DNA of 64,000 nucleotides from Chloroflexus aurantiacus J-10-fl. Its GTDB lineage: Bacteria; Chloroflexota; Chloroflexia; Chloroflexales; Chloroflexaceae. Below, piece after piece: positions 9,349-43,770 of the stretch (positions within the stretch are counted from its first letter, which is position 1; each line of letters opens with the position of its first letter). The notes under the pieces were generated by a model that was not told where the DNA came from, ran no database searches, and was given only the letters and a program-made list of their open reading frames with translations. Made by a program: the position numbers and the translations under genes. The stretch covers positions 2,728,001-2,792,000 of the forward strand of contig NC_010175.1 of assembly GCF_000018865.1 (NCBI RefSeq). The letters run 5' to 3'.

Positions 9349-10078
9349 AACTTATTTCATAAAAGCTGTGCTGTCGTGCTCCCAGCCTATCGCACATGCG
9401 CATGAACACCTGCTAATCGCCAACAACAGCATATCCTGCTTCCAGTCTGCCGATGTGACAGGAGGAGAGCTACCGCCCATCGCCAGTGCCATCACGCGCC
9501 GAATAGGTTGCCTTGCCCGCTCGTCATGCCCGTGTCGCGAAGTTTGGAATGCGGCAGCCATACTGCCGCGCCAGCCGCGCTCACGATCCGGTGCGTGGCA
9601 CGCTGTTGACCCGGCTGGTCACGGCTCTTGCTCCCGGCAACCGGTATGGCAGCGAAGAGGCTACCGCCCATCGCCAGTGCCATCACGCGCCGAATAGGTT
9701 GCCTTGCCCGCTCGTCATGCCCGTGTCGCGAAGTTTGGAATGCGGCAGCCATACTGCCGCGCCAGCCGCGCTCACGATCCGGTGCGTGGCACGCTGTTGA
9801 CCCGGCTGGTCACGGGGATGCTGTTATTCCGTACATCTATCTACAGATCAATCACGTGGCAGATTGAATCCTTCCCGCTCCGCAGGCATGGGTTGCTTTG
9901 GAGGGCGGCGGCCTGGTTTCCGCCATCGCCGTGATCAATACCAGAGGTGTATTGTACCGCTCACCCTGCTGATGATAGCTACAACATACGATAATCATCT
10001 GGCCTCTCAAGAATTGGTGAGCTATTGTCGCCATCACCATGATCTGGCAGTTGTCAGCCAGCTCCTCTTCATCATCAT
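9348..10078. repeat. repeat block between msrP and msrQ, with a 156-bp tandem duplication
   Basis: No gene is supported here. Bases 9469-9624 recur almost unchanged at 9660-9815 (offset 191). Each copy contains the widespread hairpin core with GCGGCAG...CTGCCGC. The left edge (from 9348, TATTTCATAAAAGCTGTGCT) recurs at 21318-21346, so the block is a copy of a dispersed family. From about 9840 to 10078 I see no gene and no clear repeat. Confidence 0.8.
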
Positions 10079-11690: not shown

Positions 11691-12734
11691 CTATGCATTA
11701 CCCATAACGCGAATACTGCATTGCCCGCGTGCCGGAGCGGGTCGGGGGAGTGATGAAGAACGTGCTCCCCAGCCGGGAGCTGGGAGCGCGCGCCGGAGGC
11801 GCGCATGGTGCCGGTACCAGTGCTGGAGGGAGGAGCCAGGCGCAAGCTCCCGCCCCTGGCGGCATGCACAAACGGCCAGGACAGATGATCGAACCCAACG
11901 TCTACCTTATCAGGCCGCCCTCGATCAAACGTCTGCCCTCCCCTCTCCCACCCCCAGCGGCTATGCCTTACCCACAACTGGTGTCAACCACGTGCGTATC
12001 AGCAGGTATGATCGCCATGGATGCTGTTGTGGGCGACTGGCCCGATGGCAGTGTGCCGCTCCAGCCGTGCTATCACGTGCTGGATGGATTGCCGTACCCG
12101 CTCGTCAGGCGCGTGTCGCGCAGTTTGGCGTGCGGCAGCCATGCTGCCGCGCCAGCCGCGCTCACGATCCGGCGCGGATTGCAGCGGACACCCGTGCCGG
12201 TACGTTCCCCTGATGATGGGGATGGCTGAGCACAGGCCGGCAGCCTGCCCCTCCGCGTGCTGGTGCCGGTAGTGTGGAGGGGCGGGTTCGGTAGGGGCGG
12301 GTTGAGAACCCGCCCCTACGGACGGTGCCTGTGCCGTTCACCTGACCTTCCACGGGATGCGGTGGACGGGAATGTCGTGCATCGCGGTTGTTCAGAGGTA
12401 ATCGCAGCCGCTACGCTCCCCGCTCCCGCGCAGCGCTATGCCTTACCCATACCCAGGTTGTCAACCGCTTCGCCCATCAGTCGAACCTGTCTCATTGTAC
12501 GCGATCCTGGGCACTATCGCGTCACCCTGCTGTCGCGTGGGTCGTACGTCACGAACGGAAAGCGGATGATAGCAGCGGAGGTAGCCGTTGGATCAGACCA
12601 TGGGGAAGACGTCCAGCCTGCGCACTAGCGGCCATGGCCAGCCCCTGCCGGCGGTGGCGAGGATGCCTCCACGCGGGCCACGGGGAGCGCGTGCAGACCG
12701 GCCTAACGCAGCGTGACATGTGGGTAATGCATAG
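11691..12734 (+). mobile_element. long or composite copy of the CTATGCATTACCC terminal-repeat element (copy A)
   Basis: The left end at 11691 reads CTATGCATTACCCATAAC and the right end at 12719-12734 reads TGTGGGTAATGCATAG, the same terminus inverted. The first 270 bp match 27511-27780, and from 11960 an internal terminus-like CTATGCCTTACCCACAAC starts the module shared with copies at 12850, 27781 and 43149. The right half is interrupted: after about 12180 unrelated or rearranged sequence follows, including a 13-bp palindrome at 12291-12319 and a third terminus-like stretch near 12437. The shared core resumes near 12620. No transposase is encoded; the open frames inside are not conserved as proteins. 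Confidence 0.75.
12291..12319. repeat. palindromic repeat GTAGGGGCGGGTT, perfect copy
   Basis: Arms 12291-12303 and 12307-12319 are perfect complements of 13 bp with a 3-base loop. Related copies lie at about 33411-33438 (degenerate) and 61404-61432 (one mismatch). It behaves as a small dispersed palindrome of intergenic DNA. Confidence 0.75.
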
Positions 12735-12849: not shown

Positions 12850-13325
12850 CTATGCATTACCCACAACTGGTGTCAACCACGTGTGTATCAGCGGGTATCG
12901 CCATGGGTGCTGTTGTGGGCGACTGGTCCGGTGACAGGGCGCAGCTCCAGCCGTGGTATCACGTGCTGAATGGGTTGCCTTACACGCGCATCATGGGCGT
13001 GTCGCGCAGTTTGGAGTGCGGCAGCCATGCTGCCGCGCCAGCCGCGCTCACGATCCGGCGCGTGGCATACCGTTACCCATCCTGGTCACGAGGGTGCTAA
13101 ATGTGCTCGGGCCGATCATCGAGTCGGTCAGGCATGCGTGCGATCCCTGTGCGTAAACGGTTACGTTGCGAGAGATTCGTGCCTGTACACCAACGGCCAC
13201 GGCCAGCACCTGACGGCGGTGGCGAGGATGCTTGCACGCAGGCTGGAAGCCTGCACCACGGGGAGCCGCCACGGGGAGTGCGTGCAGCCCGGCCTAACGC
13301 AGCGTGACATGTGTGTAATGCATAG
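12850..13325 (+). mobile_element. short copy of the CTATGCATTACCC terminal-repeat element (copy B)
   Basis: A 476-bp element whose left end is CTATGCATTACCCACA. The right end is TGTGTGTAATGCATAG, one base different from the perfect inverse. Internal landmarks shared with the other copies are the GCGGCAGC-CAT-GCTGCCGC hairpin near 13019 and the GCAGGC-TGGAA-GCCTGC hairpin at 13238-13254. The flanks show no clear target duplication. There is no conserved reading frame. Confidence 0.85.
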
Positions 13326-14989: not shown

Positions 14990-15457
14990 ATGGCAACACC
15001 ACCACAAGTTGGCGAGATGGCTCCCGACTTTACCCTTCCGAACGAAGCCGGCGAACCGGTCTCACTCAGCCAGTTTCGCGGCAAGCGGGTTATTCTCTAC
15101 TTCTACCCCAAAGACGATACTCCCGGTTGTACATCACAAGCCTGCGGTTTCCGCGACTCATACCCGGTCATTGAAGAAAAGAACGCCGTCGTGATCGGGA
15201 TCAGTCCTGATGGCACCAAATCCCACGCCAAATTCAAAACGAAACACAACTTGCCTTTCATCCTGTTAGCCGATGAGCAGCACAGTGTTGCCGAGGCGTA
15301 TGGGGTGTGGGGCGAGAAGTCGATGATGGGCAAGAAATATATGGGCATCATTCGCTCCCACTTCGTCATCGATGAAGAGGGTCGCATTGTGCAGGCTGAA
15401 ATTAAAGTGAGTCCCGCCGATAGTGTCAAACGCGCTCTTGCAGCGCTGGGCTTATAG
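14990..15457 (+). CDS. bcp: thioredoxin-dependent thiol peroxidase, Bcp/PrxQ type
   Basis: A 155-residue peroxiredoxin. YPKDDTPGCTSQAC carries the peroxidatic Cys47 and the resolving Cys52 five residues later, the alpha-type PrxQ arrangement. MATPPQVGEMAPDFTLPNEAG and the C-terminal IRSHFVIDEEGRI complete the family pattern. It reduces hydrogen peroxide and organic hydroperoxides in the cytoplasm. The last 63 bp of the gene belong to a 213-bp unit that is duplicated directly downstream. Confidence 0.95.
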   Translation: MATPPQVGEMAPDFTLPNEAGEPVSLSQFRGKRVILYFYPKDDTPGCTSQACGFRDSYPVIEEKNAVVIGISPDGTKSHAKFKTKHNLPFILLADEQHSVAEAYGVWGEKSMMGKKYMGIIRSHFVIDEEGRIVQAEIKVSPADSVKRALAALGL

Positions 15458-15820
15458 TCGCCGCGTGCCATGGCGAGAGCGATTTACGCAGCTGTATAAT
15501 CCATTCTCTTATCAGGGAGCGTCACATTGAGTGCGGAAGCGTTGTTTCCGTACTCAATACACGCGACACGTGATACCTGGGATAAAGCAGAGAAACCGTT
15601 GTGTAGCGCTGAAATTAAAGTGAGTCCCGCCGATAGTGTCAAACGCGCTCTTGCAGCGCTGGGCTTATAGTCGCCGCGTGCCATGGCGAGAGCGATTTAC
15701 GCCGCTGTATGACCCACTCCCTGATTAGGGAGCGTCACATTGAGTGCGGAAGCGTTGTTTCCGCACTCAATACACGCGACACGTGATACCTGGGATAAAG
15801 CAGAGAAACCGTTGTGTAGC
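15395..15820 (+). repeat. 213-bp tandem duplication including the 3' end of bcp
   Basis: Unit 1 (15395-15607) and unit 2 (15608-15820) are nearly identical. The unit starts inside bcp, covers its last 20 codons and stop and runs about 150 bp downstream, including a hairpin of the form GAGTGCGGAA...TTCCGCACTC that may act as the terminator. Unit 2 therefore contains a truncated bcp tail without a start. The unit is 71 codons long, but the first stop precedes the second copy, so the protein is not extended. Confidence 0.9.
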
Positions 15821-16027
15821 GTGGTTAGTGCGGCGATCCGGTCTGCGTCTTTAGACAGCGATCATTGATCAACCGACCCGGCTATCTCGATACCGTAGCG
15901 TTCTTCATCACCGCCCCGCAATCGCTTCCACAGTGTCAGGCGGGTACATCGTCTGCATGACCAGACTTGTCTAATACCAAATCCGCTCTGTCGAGTCTGA
16001 TCTGGGCACGTTCCCTCTTATCTGCAC
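15821..16027. other. gene-free gap
   Basis: About 200 bp between the duplicated bcp tail and the STAS gene. Apart from CTAATACCAAATC near 15972, which resembles the ATATCAAATCTGGT motif found at other intergenic sites, I see nothing here. Confidence 0.4.
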
Positions 16028-21230: not shown

Positions 21231-22212
21231 GATGATATTGTACTCCAAACTGAGATGTTGACGAACAGCGGGCCATCAGGATGTTACATCAAATCTGGTG
21301 TAATATCAGACACACGAGAACGTATTTCATAAAAGCTGTGCTGTCGTACTTCCAGACGGTCGCACAGGCGCATGAACGCTTGCCCATCGTCAACGCCGGT
21401 ATATCCTGCTCCCAGGCTGCCGGTATTGCAGCAGGGAGGGCTAATGAGCTTCTTCGGCGCCATCACGCGCTGGATTGGTTGCCTTGCCCGCTCATCATGT
21501 GCGTGTCGCGACGTTTGGAAATCATCGCTCCAGGCAACCCATTCGCCGTAATACGCTTATCAGGCACGTGTCGCGACGTTTGGAGTGCGGCAGCCATGCT
21601 GCCGCGTCAGCCGTGCTCACGATCCGAAGCGTGTCACGCCGTTGACCATGCTGGTCACGAGGATGCTGTATGTGCTCGCCACAATCATTGAGTCGATCTG
21701 TAATGAATCTAGTCAATGTTTTTTGCAATAGATGCTATCCAAATCATCACTCTTTCCGTCCCATAGCAGTGGCACCGGCGATTGACGAGTGCGGGCCACC
21801 TGCTCTCTCCACGGGGAGCGGTATCGACGCCGTGGCGCGAATACCGAATCGTATCCGCGACAATGGTTCACAGTATCCATCAAGATATGATGAACCCAGG
21901 TTGCCACCTGTGTTGTGATCAGGCCACAGAGGCTGACTTCCAGGATGAACAGCACGACGTTGTGCGCAACATTGTGCGGCGTACCTGGATTGAACGATGT
22001 GGGACGCATCCGGTTCCCATCGACGCGCTCTGTCACGACTCATGGTAGCAATCCGGCTTATACCCATCCTCTGTGGTGGCAAAGGTAGCAACCTGGGTTA
22101 TGATTATGAGTAGGAGAGGGCCGGGGTTGAGGGCTTCCAGATGCTCGTGCACCTGCAACGTTCCCTCAGCAGTTCGTCGGCAGCACGTCAGCACGGAAAA
22201 CGACACATCGGA
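21231..22212. repeat. gene-free stretch with dispersed repeats
   Basis: From 21287 there is CATCAAATCTGGT, a motif also near 33314, 34893 and 48414. From 21318 to about 21690 the sequence follows the repeat seen at 9348, including a hairpin core GCGGCAGC-CAT-GCTGCCGC near 21590 and a tail GGATGCTGTATGTGCTCG. From 21700 to 22212 I see no repeat and no convincing gene; two overlapping minus-strand frames of about 110 codons lack ribosome sites and recognisable motifs. Confidence 0.65.
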
Positions 22213-23154
22213 TCACTGCTGCTGTTGCTGCTGAGCAGCCAGTTCGGCCTGGACACTGGCGGTCGTGATCTGCGGCAGAACTTCGGCTTCATCAATATGT
22301 ACCGCGGCGGGGAGCACCTTCACTCCTACTTCCAGTTGACTGCTGGCCTGCCCGCGATAGATACCGCGAGTGGGTGGTACATCGGCATAGTCGCGACCAA
22401 CGGCCACGCGAATATGCCGCTCCGCAGCAATGAGATCGTTTGTCGGATCAAATCCAATCCAACCCAATTCCGGCAAGAAGGCTTCTACCCAGGCGTGGGT
22501 GGCGTCTTCTTCCGAACGATCATGATCTTCGGTGCGATGAAACAGGTAGCCACTGACATAACGACAGGGAATGCCGACCCGCCGTACCAGGGCAATCATA
22601 ATATGCGCAAAGTCCTGGCACACACCACGCCGCGCCAGCAATGCTTCATCGATTGGCGAGTCGACGCGGGTTGTCTGCGGCGCGTAGGCGAAGGTTTGGG
22701 CCATCTGATGGGTTAGCTCGCGCAACAGACTCAGAGGATCGGTGCGCCGCTCTACCCCAAGTTCACGGGCCAGATCAAGCAAGGCGGGAGTCATTTGAAT
22801 AAAATGACTGGGCATTAAGAAATCCCACCACTCCCCTCGCTCGGCCAGTAGATCGAGCATCTGCCAGGTAGTGTTATCGAGTTTATCAGGTAATGGCGGG
22901 ATAGGGAACATCTGGACGACCGCTTCGGCAATCACTAACAACTGACGGTGTGCTGCGGCAACGTCAAAATGGTAGACCTCATTGCCAAGCCAGTCGCGGT
23001 AGTGGTTGATACGGGCAAAAGGAGCGGTGGTTAAATGAAACTCTACGAGTCGCTGGTACCCTTCATCGCGCGGGCACATGCGGACTTCAGTCTGACTTTC
23101 GGTCACCGGCGCGCTGTAGCGAAAGCGCGTCTTATGCAGGATCGAGTAGTACAT
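22213..23154 (-). CDS. transglutaminase-like cysteine protease superfamily protein
   Basis: A 313-residue protein with ATG at 23154. The N-terminal beta region (MYYSILHKTRFRYSAPV) is the bacterial transglutaminase N-domain. The catalytic triad is Cys179 in RRGVCQDFAH, His220 in ATHAWVEAF and Asp236 in WIGFDPTND. The protein ends in a run of six Gln. It is the last gene of a three-gene cluster with an alpha-E protein and a circularly permuted ATP-grasp protein, a widely conserved trio whose role (peptide ligation and processing is often suggested) is not firmly known. Confidence 0.9.
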   Translation of the reverse strand: MYYSILHKTRFRYSAPVTESQTEVRMCPRDEGYQRLVEFHLTTAPFARINHYRDWLGNEVYHFDVAAAHRQLLVIAEAVVQMFPIPPLPDKLDNTTWQMLDLLAERGEWWDFLMPSHFIQMTPALLDLARELGVERRTDPLSLLRELTHQMAQTFAYAPQTTRVDSPIDEALLARRGVCQDFAHIMIALVRRVGIPCRYVSGYLFHRTEDHDRSEEDATHAWVEAFLPELGWIGFDPTNDLIAAERHIRVAVGRDYADVPPTRGIYRGQASSQLEVGVKVLPAAVHIDEAEVLPQITTASVQAELAAQQQQQQ

Positions 23155-27510: not shown

Positions 27511-28245
27511 CTATGCATTACCCATAACTCGCATACTGCATTGCCCGCGTGCCGGAGCGGGTCGGGAGAGTGATGACATGACGGGCGTGCTCCCCAGCCG
27601 GGAGCTGGGAGCGCGCGCCTCCGGCGCGCATGGTGCCGGCACCAGTGCTGAAGGAGGAGCCAGGCGCAAGCTCCCGCCCCTGGCGGCATTCACGGACGGC
27701 CAGGACAGATGATCGAACACAACGTCTACCCTATCAGGAAGCCCTGGATCACACGTCTGCCCTCCCATCTCCCACCCCCGCTATGCATTCCCCATACCTG
27801 GTGTCAACCACATGCGTATCAGCGGGTATGATCGCTATGGGTGCTGTTGTGGGCGATTGGCCCGGTGATGGTGCGCAGCTCCAGCCGTGCTATCACGTGC
27901 CGGATGGGTTGCCTTACGCACGCATCATGTGCGTGTCGCGCGGTATGGAGTGCGGCAGCCATGCTGCCGCAGCAGCCGTGCTCACGATCCGGCGCGTGCC
28001 CCACCGTTCCCCATCCTGGTCACGGCGGTACTGGATGTGCTCGTGACAATCATCGAGTCAGTCAGGCATACATGCGATACCTGGGCGTAGCGGTGTTGTT
28101 GCACTTGGTTCGTGCCTGCGCACCAGCGGCCACGGCCAGCACCTGACAGCGGTGGCGATGATGCCAGCACGCGGGCTGGAAGCCCGCGCCACGGAGAGTG
28201 CTTGCAGCCTGGCCTAACGCAGCGTGACATGTGGGTAATGCATAG
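27511..28245 (+). mobile_element. long copy of the CTATGCATTACCC terminal-repeat element (copy C/D)
   Basis: The outer left end at 27511 reads CTATGCATTACCCATAAC; the right end (28230-28245) is TGTGGGTAATGCATAG. The first 270 bp match copy A and contain the hairpin GCGCGCCTCCGGCGCGC near 27613. An internal terminus-like CTATGCATTCCCCATA at 27781 begins the short module (465 bp) shared with the copies at 12850 and 43149. CACGTATATC directly before the element (27501-27510) recurs at 28248-28257, 2 bp after it, probably a target duplication blurred by a small insertion. That would make the 735-bp long form a transposing unit. No transposase frame is present. Confidence 0.82.
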
Positions 28246-43139: not shown

Positions 43140-43148
43140 GCCAGAGGT

Positions 43149-43622
43149 CTATGCATTACCCACAACTGGAGTCAACCACGTGCGTATCAGCGGGGATCAT
43201 CGCCATAGGTGCTGTTGTGGGCAACTGGCTCGGTGTGCGCAGCTCTAGCCGTGCTATCACGTGCTGGATGGGTTGCCTTACATGCACATCATGTGCGTGT
43301 CGCAGGGTTTGGAGTGCGGCAGCCATGCTGCCGCGCCAGCCGTGCTCACGATCCGGCGCGTGGTCCGCCGTTCCCCATCCTCGTCACGGCAAAGCCGGAT
43401 GTGATCGTTTCGATCATCGAGTCGGTCAGGCATACATGCGATACCTGCGCGTAGAAGTTTAGTTGTACCAGATTCGTGCATGCGCACCAGCGATCACTGC
43501 CAGCACCTGACGGCGGTGGCGAGGATGCATCCACGCAGGCTGGAAGCCTGCGCCATGGGGAGCCGCCACTGGGAGCGCTTGCAGCCCGGCCTAACGCAGC
43601 GTGACATGTGGGTAATGCATAG
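43149..43622 (+). mobile_element. intact short copy of the CTATGCATTACCC terminal-repeat element with 9-bp target duplication (copy E)
   Basis: A 474-bp element. The first 16 bases (CTATGCATTACCCACA) and the last 16 (TGTGGGTAATGCATAG) are perfect inverted repeats. The element is flanked by GCCAGAGGT at 43140-43148 and again at 43623-43631, a perfect 9-bp direct repeat, the usual mark of transposition. Inside are the GCGGCAGC-CAT-GCTGCCGC hairpin near 43316 and GCAGGC-TGGAA-GCCTGC at 43535-43551. No protein is encoded, so it must be moved by a transposase supplied elsewhere. It sits in the gap between the LacI operator region and argS. Confidence 0.93.
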
Positions 43623-43770
43623 GCCAGAGGTTGGGGGTGAGGGCATCCTGGTGTCGTCACCTGGCTCTATCTCCCCATGTGGCTGCTGGAATCCATACTT
43701 CCTTACGACGCCTGTCCCCGACGATATGCGGTATACTAAGGCTTGACATAGCAATACAAGGAGCACACGT

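Follow-up and report, generated by a model that had tools for sequence, protein, structure and literature searches.

The 474-bp sequence at positions 43149–43622 of the window, the 64,000-nucleotide stretch of the Chloroflexus aurantiacus J-10-fl chromosome that we analysed, is almost certainly a MITE that keeps the 19-bp ends required by an IS4-family, IS50-group (Tn5-like) transposase, presumably supplied in trans. The chromosome contains well over a hundred short copies with Tn5/IS50-like ends. These copies have the attributes of a prokaryotic MITE: inverted ends with a target duplication, a short non-coding body, many dispersed copies and a paralogous empty site. The features of the window copy are as follows.

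43140–43148, unstranded: left copy of the target-site duplication GCCAGAGGT, read directly
43149–43622, unstranded: 474-bp non-autonomous element of subfamily A
43149–43167, + strand: left terminal repeat CTATGCATTACCCACAACT, perfect over 16 bp and counted over 19 bp as an IS50-type end
43604–43622, − strand: right terminal repeat, CTATGCATTACCCACATGT on that strand
43623–43631, unstranded: right copy of the target-site duplication GCCAGAGGT, read directly

Re-reading the sequence reproduced exactly the coordinates, 16-bp perfect inverted ends and 9-bp GCCAGAGGT duplication described in the first-pass annotation. CTATGCATTACCCACA occupies 43149–43164 and its exact reverse complement occupies 43607–43622; no other perfect 16-bp inverted ends lying 200–1500 bp apart in the window are flanked by an exact 9-bp direct repeat. 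Simulating the window 20 times with a first-order Markov model produced no perfect 16-bp inverted pair 200–1500 bases apart, and the terminus matched the window 11 times at three or fewer mismatches, compared with 0.36 matches expected by shuffling. We also aligned the left terminus with the IS end CTATGCATTACCCACATCT. The element was said to encode no protein, and the ORFs overlapping 43149–43622 indeed returned no Pfam match.

The first-pass annotation had named IS50-type transposition as one possible source of the 9-bp duplication and had suggested looking for a transposase-encoding IS with the same termini. Both ideas proved correct: the same genome, a single contig of 5,258,541 bp, carries an IS4-family, IS50-group element whose termini are identical to those of the MITE and which is flanked by a duplication of 9 bp.

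Genome 766523–768006 (L078): cognate element, 1484 bp, with the same termini as the MITE and a perfect 9-bp duplication, GTTCCCCCC, on both sides
Genome 766609–767985: transposase gene within the cognate element

This gene encodes a transposase of the Tn5/IS50 type (IS4 family), its reading frame interrupted by a single TAG. The product matched PF14706 (Tnp_DNA_bind) and PF01609 (DDE_Tnp_1) and, beyond the TAG, PF02281 (Dimer_Tnp_Tn5). Its best PDB matches were all Tn5 transposase (best E 1.8e-41), and in the printed alignments its D, D and E positions align with those of Tn5, which itself generates 9-bp duplications. The cognate element thus combines Tn5-type DNA-binding, DDE and dimerisation domains with 19-bp ends and a 9-bp duplication, as expected of the IS50 group. 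The MITE and the IS have about 19–21 bp at each end in common and nothing significant in the interior. A genome-wide transposase search returned the copy at 766523–768006, a heavily decayed second copy at about 21936–23100 (L067) and, near 1386932, a small fragment followed about 25 bases on by a terminus; the whole-genome search turned up no transposase that could still function. The IS50-group element in this genome has no active transposase gene; membership of the group does not call for one, but the point matters for judging whether the family is still live. The TAG lies at the same place in both larger transposase copies, where the catalytic domain meets the dimerisation domain, and the two proteins are only about 70% identical.

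Genome-wide, the terminus occurs 313 times at two or fewer mismatches, versus three times for a reversed-pattern control and versus two transposase copies; relatives have no more than a handful of termini. The family ends can be written as CTATGCATTACCCACAWCT. We read about 1.25 Mb in stretches chosen around known termini, so that the subfamily copy counts are partial, and obtained 84 end-to-end segments. Subfamily A (about 466 bp; consensus 465 bp) had 35–36 copies in these stretches, the window copy included; subfamily B (310 bp) had 18 and subfamily C (622 bp) had eight, with smaller groups and singletons besides. Copies have drifted by about 10% from their own consensus. The age of most insertions follows from their nearest-neighbour identity, which is mostly 85–91% and stands at 87% for the window copy: they are old. 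Pairs that are nearly identical also occur, some of them inside arrays or shared segments. In the subfamily A alignment, the ends are modestly better conserved than the interior (0.93–0.97 versus 0.90), and the contrast is larger in an interior-anchored count, which takes in tandem arrays.

Three further copies had been reported in the window.

12850–13325, unstranded: second subfamily A copy, 476 bp, 85% identical over its full length to the copy at 43149
27511–28245, unstranded: 735-bp composite of about 270 bp starting with its own terminus and a subfamily A copy (27781–28245)
11691–12734, unstranded: chimeric decayed copy with four termini, at 11691, 11961 and 12436 on the + strand and at 12719 on the − strand

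All three are real relatives, but they are less clean than had been implied, their duplications being absent or offset. We looked for flanking duplications at 12850–13325 and 11691–12734 and found none; the composite at 27511–28245 has CACGTATATC near both outer ends, but with two additional bases beside the right end. The chimeric copy contains the left part of a subfamily A element (11961–12176) and a segment of the roughly 310-bp subfamily B (12436–12734). The family as a whole is nested and chimeric. A piece of about 266–270 bp starting with its own terminus and joined to an A element recurs at several loci, the arrangement at 27511–28245 being found again at genome positions 3158366–3159095, 2207234–2207977 and 768322–769171; another recurrent composite is a B-type segment preceded by TCCCGCGCAGCG. 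Because some composites, such as those at 873639–874717 and 3158366–3159095, have duplications at their outer ends, the data suggest that these moved as units.

The window also contains tandem duplications of 191 bp (9469–9815) and 213 bp (15387–15821), 100% and 95% identical, respectively. The first includes a hairpin repeat, GCGGCAGCCATGCTGCCGC, which is present at 43324–43342 and in many other places. In the stretches read, we counted 93 and 70 copies of this hairpin on the two strands, only about half of them within MITE segments. Short related matches are repeated in other Chloroflexales, with up to 40 in one genome (G051, locus L040; also G005, locus L041). Apparently it is a REP-like repeat of independent origin that the MITEs have picked up.

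In places the family forms tandem arrays, with the MITE terminus present in every unit.

Genome 2112614–2115497 (L091): 239-bp unit, about 13 units
Genome 3001755–3003300 (L102): 384-bp unit, 5 units
Genome 3832234–3836063 (L114): unit of about 374 bp, about 10 units
Genome 4823275–4824644 (L123): 677-bp unit, 3 units

Such arrays, along with copies whose flanks are 98–99% identical, would be expected if recombination, together with segmental or tandem duplication, had been the family's main route of spread, with the inverted ends belonging to a long intergenic repeat. This account is true for the arrays but is contradicted for the bulk of the dispersed copies, and we regard it as highly unlikely overall: at many loci, unrelated flanks carry element-specific duplications of 8–12 bp, a clean empty site exists, and an IS sharing these ends has its own 9-bp duplication. 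Among 168 linked convergent (F–R) end pairs, defined as convergent ends no more than 2.6 kb apart in the roughly 1.25 Mb read, 40 were flanked by an 8–12-bp duplication (score threshold 6.5), compared with 4.7 expected from unlinked pairs. The most frequent length was 9 bp (20 out of 40). Many of the 128 pairs that had no duplication are internal pairings within composites, or are decayed. The filled copy at 180313–180778 has TGGAGTAGG on both sides, whereas the paralogous empty site at 1477648–1477766 has TGGAGTAGG once and no element, with 97.5% identity over 120 bp across the junction. This empty site is direct evidence that an element inserted precisely and duplicated 9 bp of target. Duplications of this length lean towards CCC...GGG, and 31% of targets, versus 7% of nearby control sites, have a hairpin stem of 5 bp or more close to the insertion point; GC-rich palindromic targets are thus a preference, with no strict site.

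The element lies between divergent genes for a LacI-type regulator and arginyl-tRNA synthetase, and it folds more stably than dinucleotide shuffles (z −3.0), with its inverted ends and internal hairpins contributing. Both features could fit a regulatory or structured-RNA element that serves the host, for instance as a terminator or leader, and whose inverted ends arose by chance. We consider this very improbable. An Rfam search of the window matched four tRNAs only, none of them on the element, and essentially no terminus occurs in seven other Chloroflexus genomes, which gave one match in total at one or fewer mismatches. In the orthologous intergenic region of another Chloroflexus genome (G008), the element is absent and the conserved blocks are 183 bp apart, compared with about 925 bp here. 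Exact termini across 301 genomes of the phylum numbered 141 in C. aurantiacus J-10-fl and two or fewer in any other; terminus amplification is therefore specific to C. aurantiacus. The absence in relatives and the shorter gap in G008 are consistent with gain of the element in the C. aurantiacus lineage. A base-exact empty site for the window copy was sought in relatives and none was alignable; the flanking genes are conserved, and the adjoining intergenic DNA consists of other repeats. Searches for homology to the whole element found none in plasmids and, outside the species, short matches only, mostly to the internal hairpin sequence. Duplications do recur at other copies, then, and not all orthologous sites in relatives are filled, the two points on which the earlier proposal of a mobile element had staked itself.

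The first-pass annotation had not recognised the terminus from any described family, a point that needs correcting: with few changes, the 19-bp end is common to annotated IS4-family elements in other phyla. A hot-spring Anaerolineae MAG contains an intact related IS, 1474 bp from end to end, with a 455-aa open frame that has a sense codon at the TAG position. Its transposase, which matched NCBIfam "IS4 family transposase" at E 7.9e-136 and is 60% identical over 448 aa, is enclosed by the ends CTATGCGTTACCCATAAGT and CTATGCATTACCCATAAGT, which differ from the 16-bp terminus at two bases and one base. In two Chloroflexales genomes (G066 and G067), elements of about 1.4 kb enclose disrupted transposase genes between similar ends, and G060 has a deletion derivative. 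On a Nostoc plasmid, an annotated IS4-family transposase lies within perfect CTATCCATTACCCACATCT ends, with the 9-bp sequence CTTAAAAAG on both sides; an element on a Rhodothermus plasmid has related ends, a homologous transposase and the 9-bp sequence CTCTACATC on both sides. The relatives examined in Leptolyngbya and Gloeothece showed no clear end pair. Since intact ISs in the Anaerolineae MAG, Nostoc and Rhodothermus combine nearly the same 19-bp ends with homologous transposases, the terminus is an IS50-group IS4 end. Given the premature stop in the near-complete transposase, one could suppose that an unrelated 9-bp-duplicating transposase (of IS1, IS5 or another type) moved the family, with the IS50-type gene at 766523 as a passenger; this is scarcely credible, as these ends and homologous IS50-group transposases occur together in Nostoc, in Rhodothermus and in four further Chloroflexota genomes or MAGs, and the ends resemble the outside end of Tn5, agreeing with it at 12 of 19 positions.

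Taking these results together, the suggestion of a non-autonomous, MITE-like family is well founded in the cognate element, the further duplicated copies and the empty site. Under mobilisation in trans by the IS50-group transposase, a full-length element with the same ends would supply the protein, which would bind both ends of the MITE and presumably excise it by cut-and-paste, as in Tn5; reinsertion elsewhere would then duplicate mostly 9 bp of target (8–12 bp seen). This route, like the age of the activity, is deduced from sequence. In this strain the family has probably gone dormant, given the stop within the frame of its sole near-complete transposase gene and the drift of the copies from their consensus. 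It is very unlikely that the TAG, instead of being a simple lesion, was already present while the family spread, such that a truncated (353-aa) or partly read-through transposase drove or regulated a MITE burst with a palindromic target preference.

Our search of the open-access literature found no paper joining Chloroflexus with MITEs or dealing with an IS50-group MITE, and the C. aurantiacus genome paper, on a text search, mentions neither insertion sequences nor MITEs. A review of MITEs (PMC10969869) mentions neither IS4 nor Chloroflexi in its text, and IS50 only in connection with Tn5. The family is therefore previously undescribed in the open literature searched, but it is of a known kind, with an IS50-group end as its terminus. 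It accounts for a large share of the intergenic repeats in a model phototroph genome. A clear IS50/Tn5-type MITE family with its cognate element should be useful for annotation and for understanding how miniature elements come to exceed their source in number and, it seems, to outlast it.

Among known systems, the Chunjie MITEs of Geobacter uraniireducens and the Correia MITEs of Neisseria are likewise short and non-coding, with many intergenic copies, partial copies and conserved terminal inverted and direct repeats (PMC10969869), but their end sequences differ from those of the Chloroflexus family. A Porphyromonas gingivalis MITE reported to contain a minisatellite also ties a MITE to tandem repetition (PMC4596501); in the Chloroflexus arrays, by contrast, the unit is a whole or partial element including the terminus. 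Elements of 159 bp in G066 and G067 have the same or similar ends (CTATGCATTACCCACA and CTGTACATTACCCACA) and duplications of 9–11 bp at several copies, but they are shorter and have a different interior, which marks them as an independent MITE expansion. These 159-bp elements often lie in TCCAGCGTCGCTGGA-like palindromes (loci L047, L050, L051, L052 and L053). There is also a close likeness to the IS50 group of the IS4 family, comprising Tn5/IS50 and cyanobacterial and Chloroflexota IS4 elements, in the 19-bp ends that start with CT and finish with ACWST, the 9-bp duplications and the transposase, which combines DNA-binding, DDE and dimerisation domains of the Tn5 type. The differences from that group are that the MITE lacks a transposase, that a TAG interrupts the reading frame of the genomic master copy, and that the family duplications range from 8 to 12 bp.
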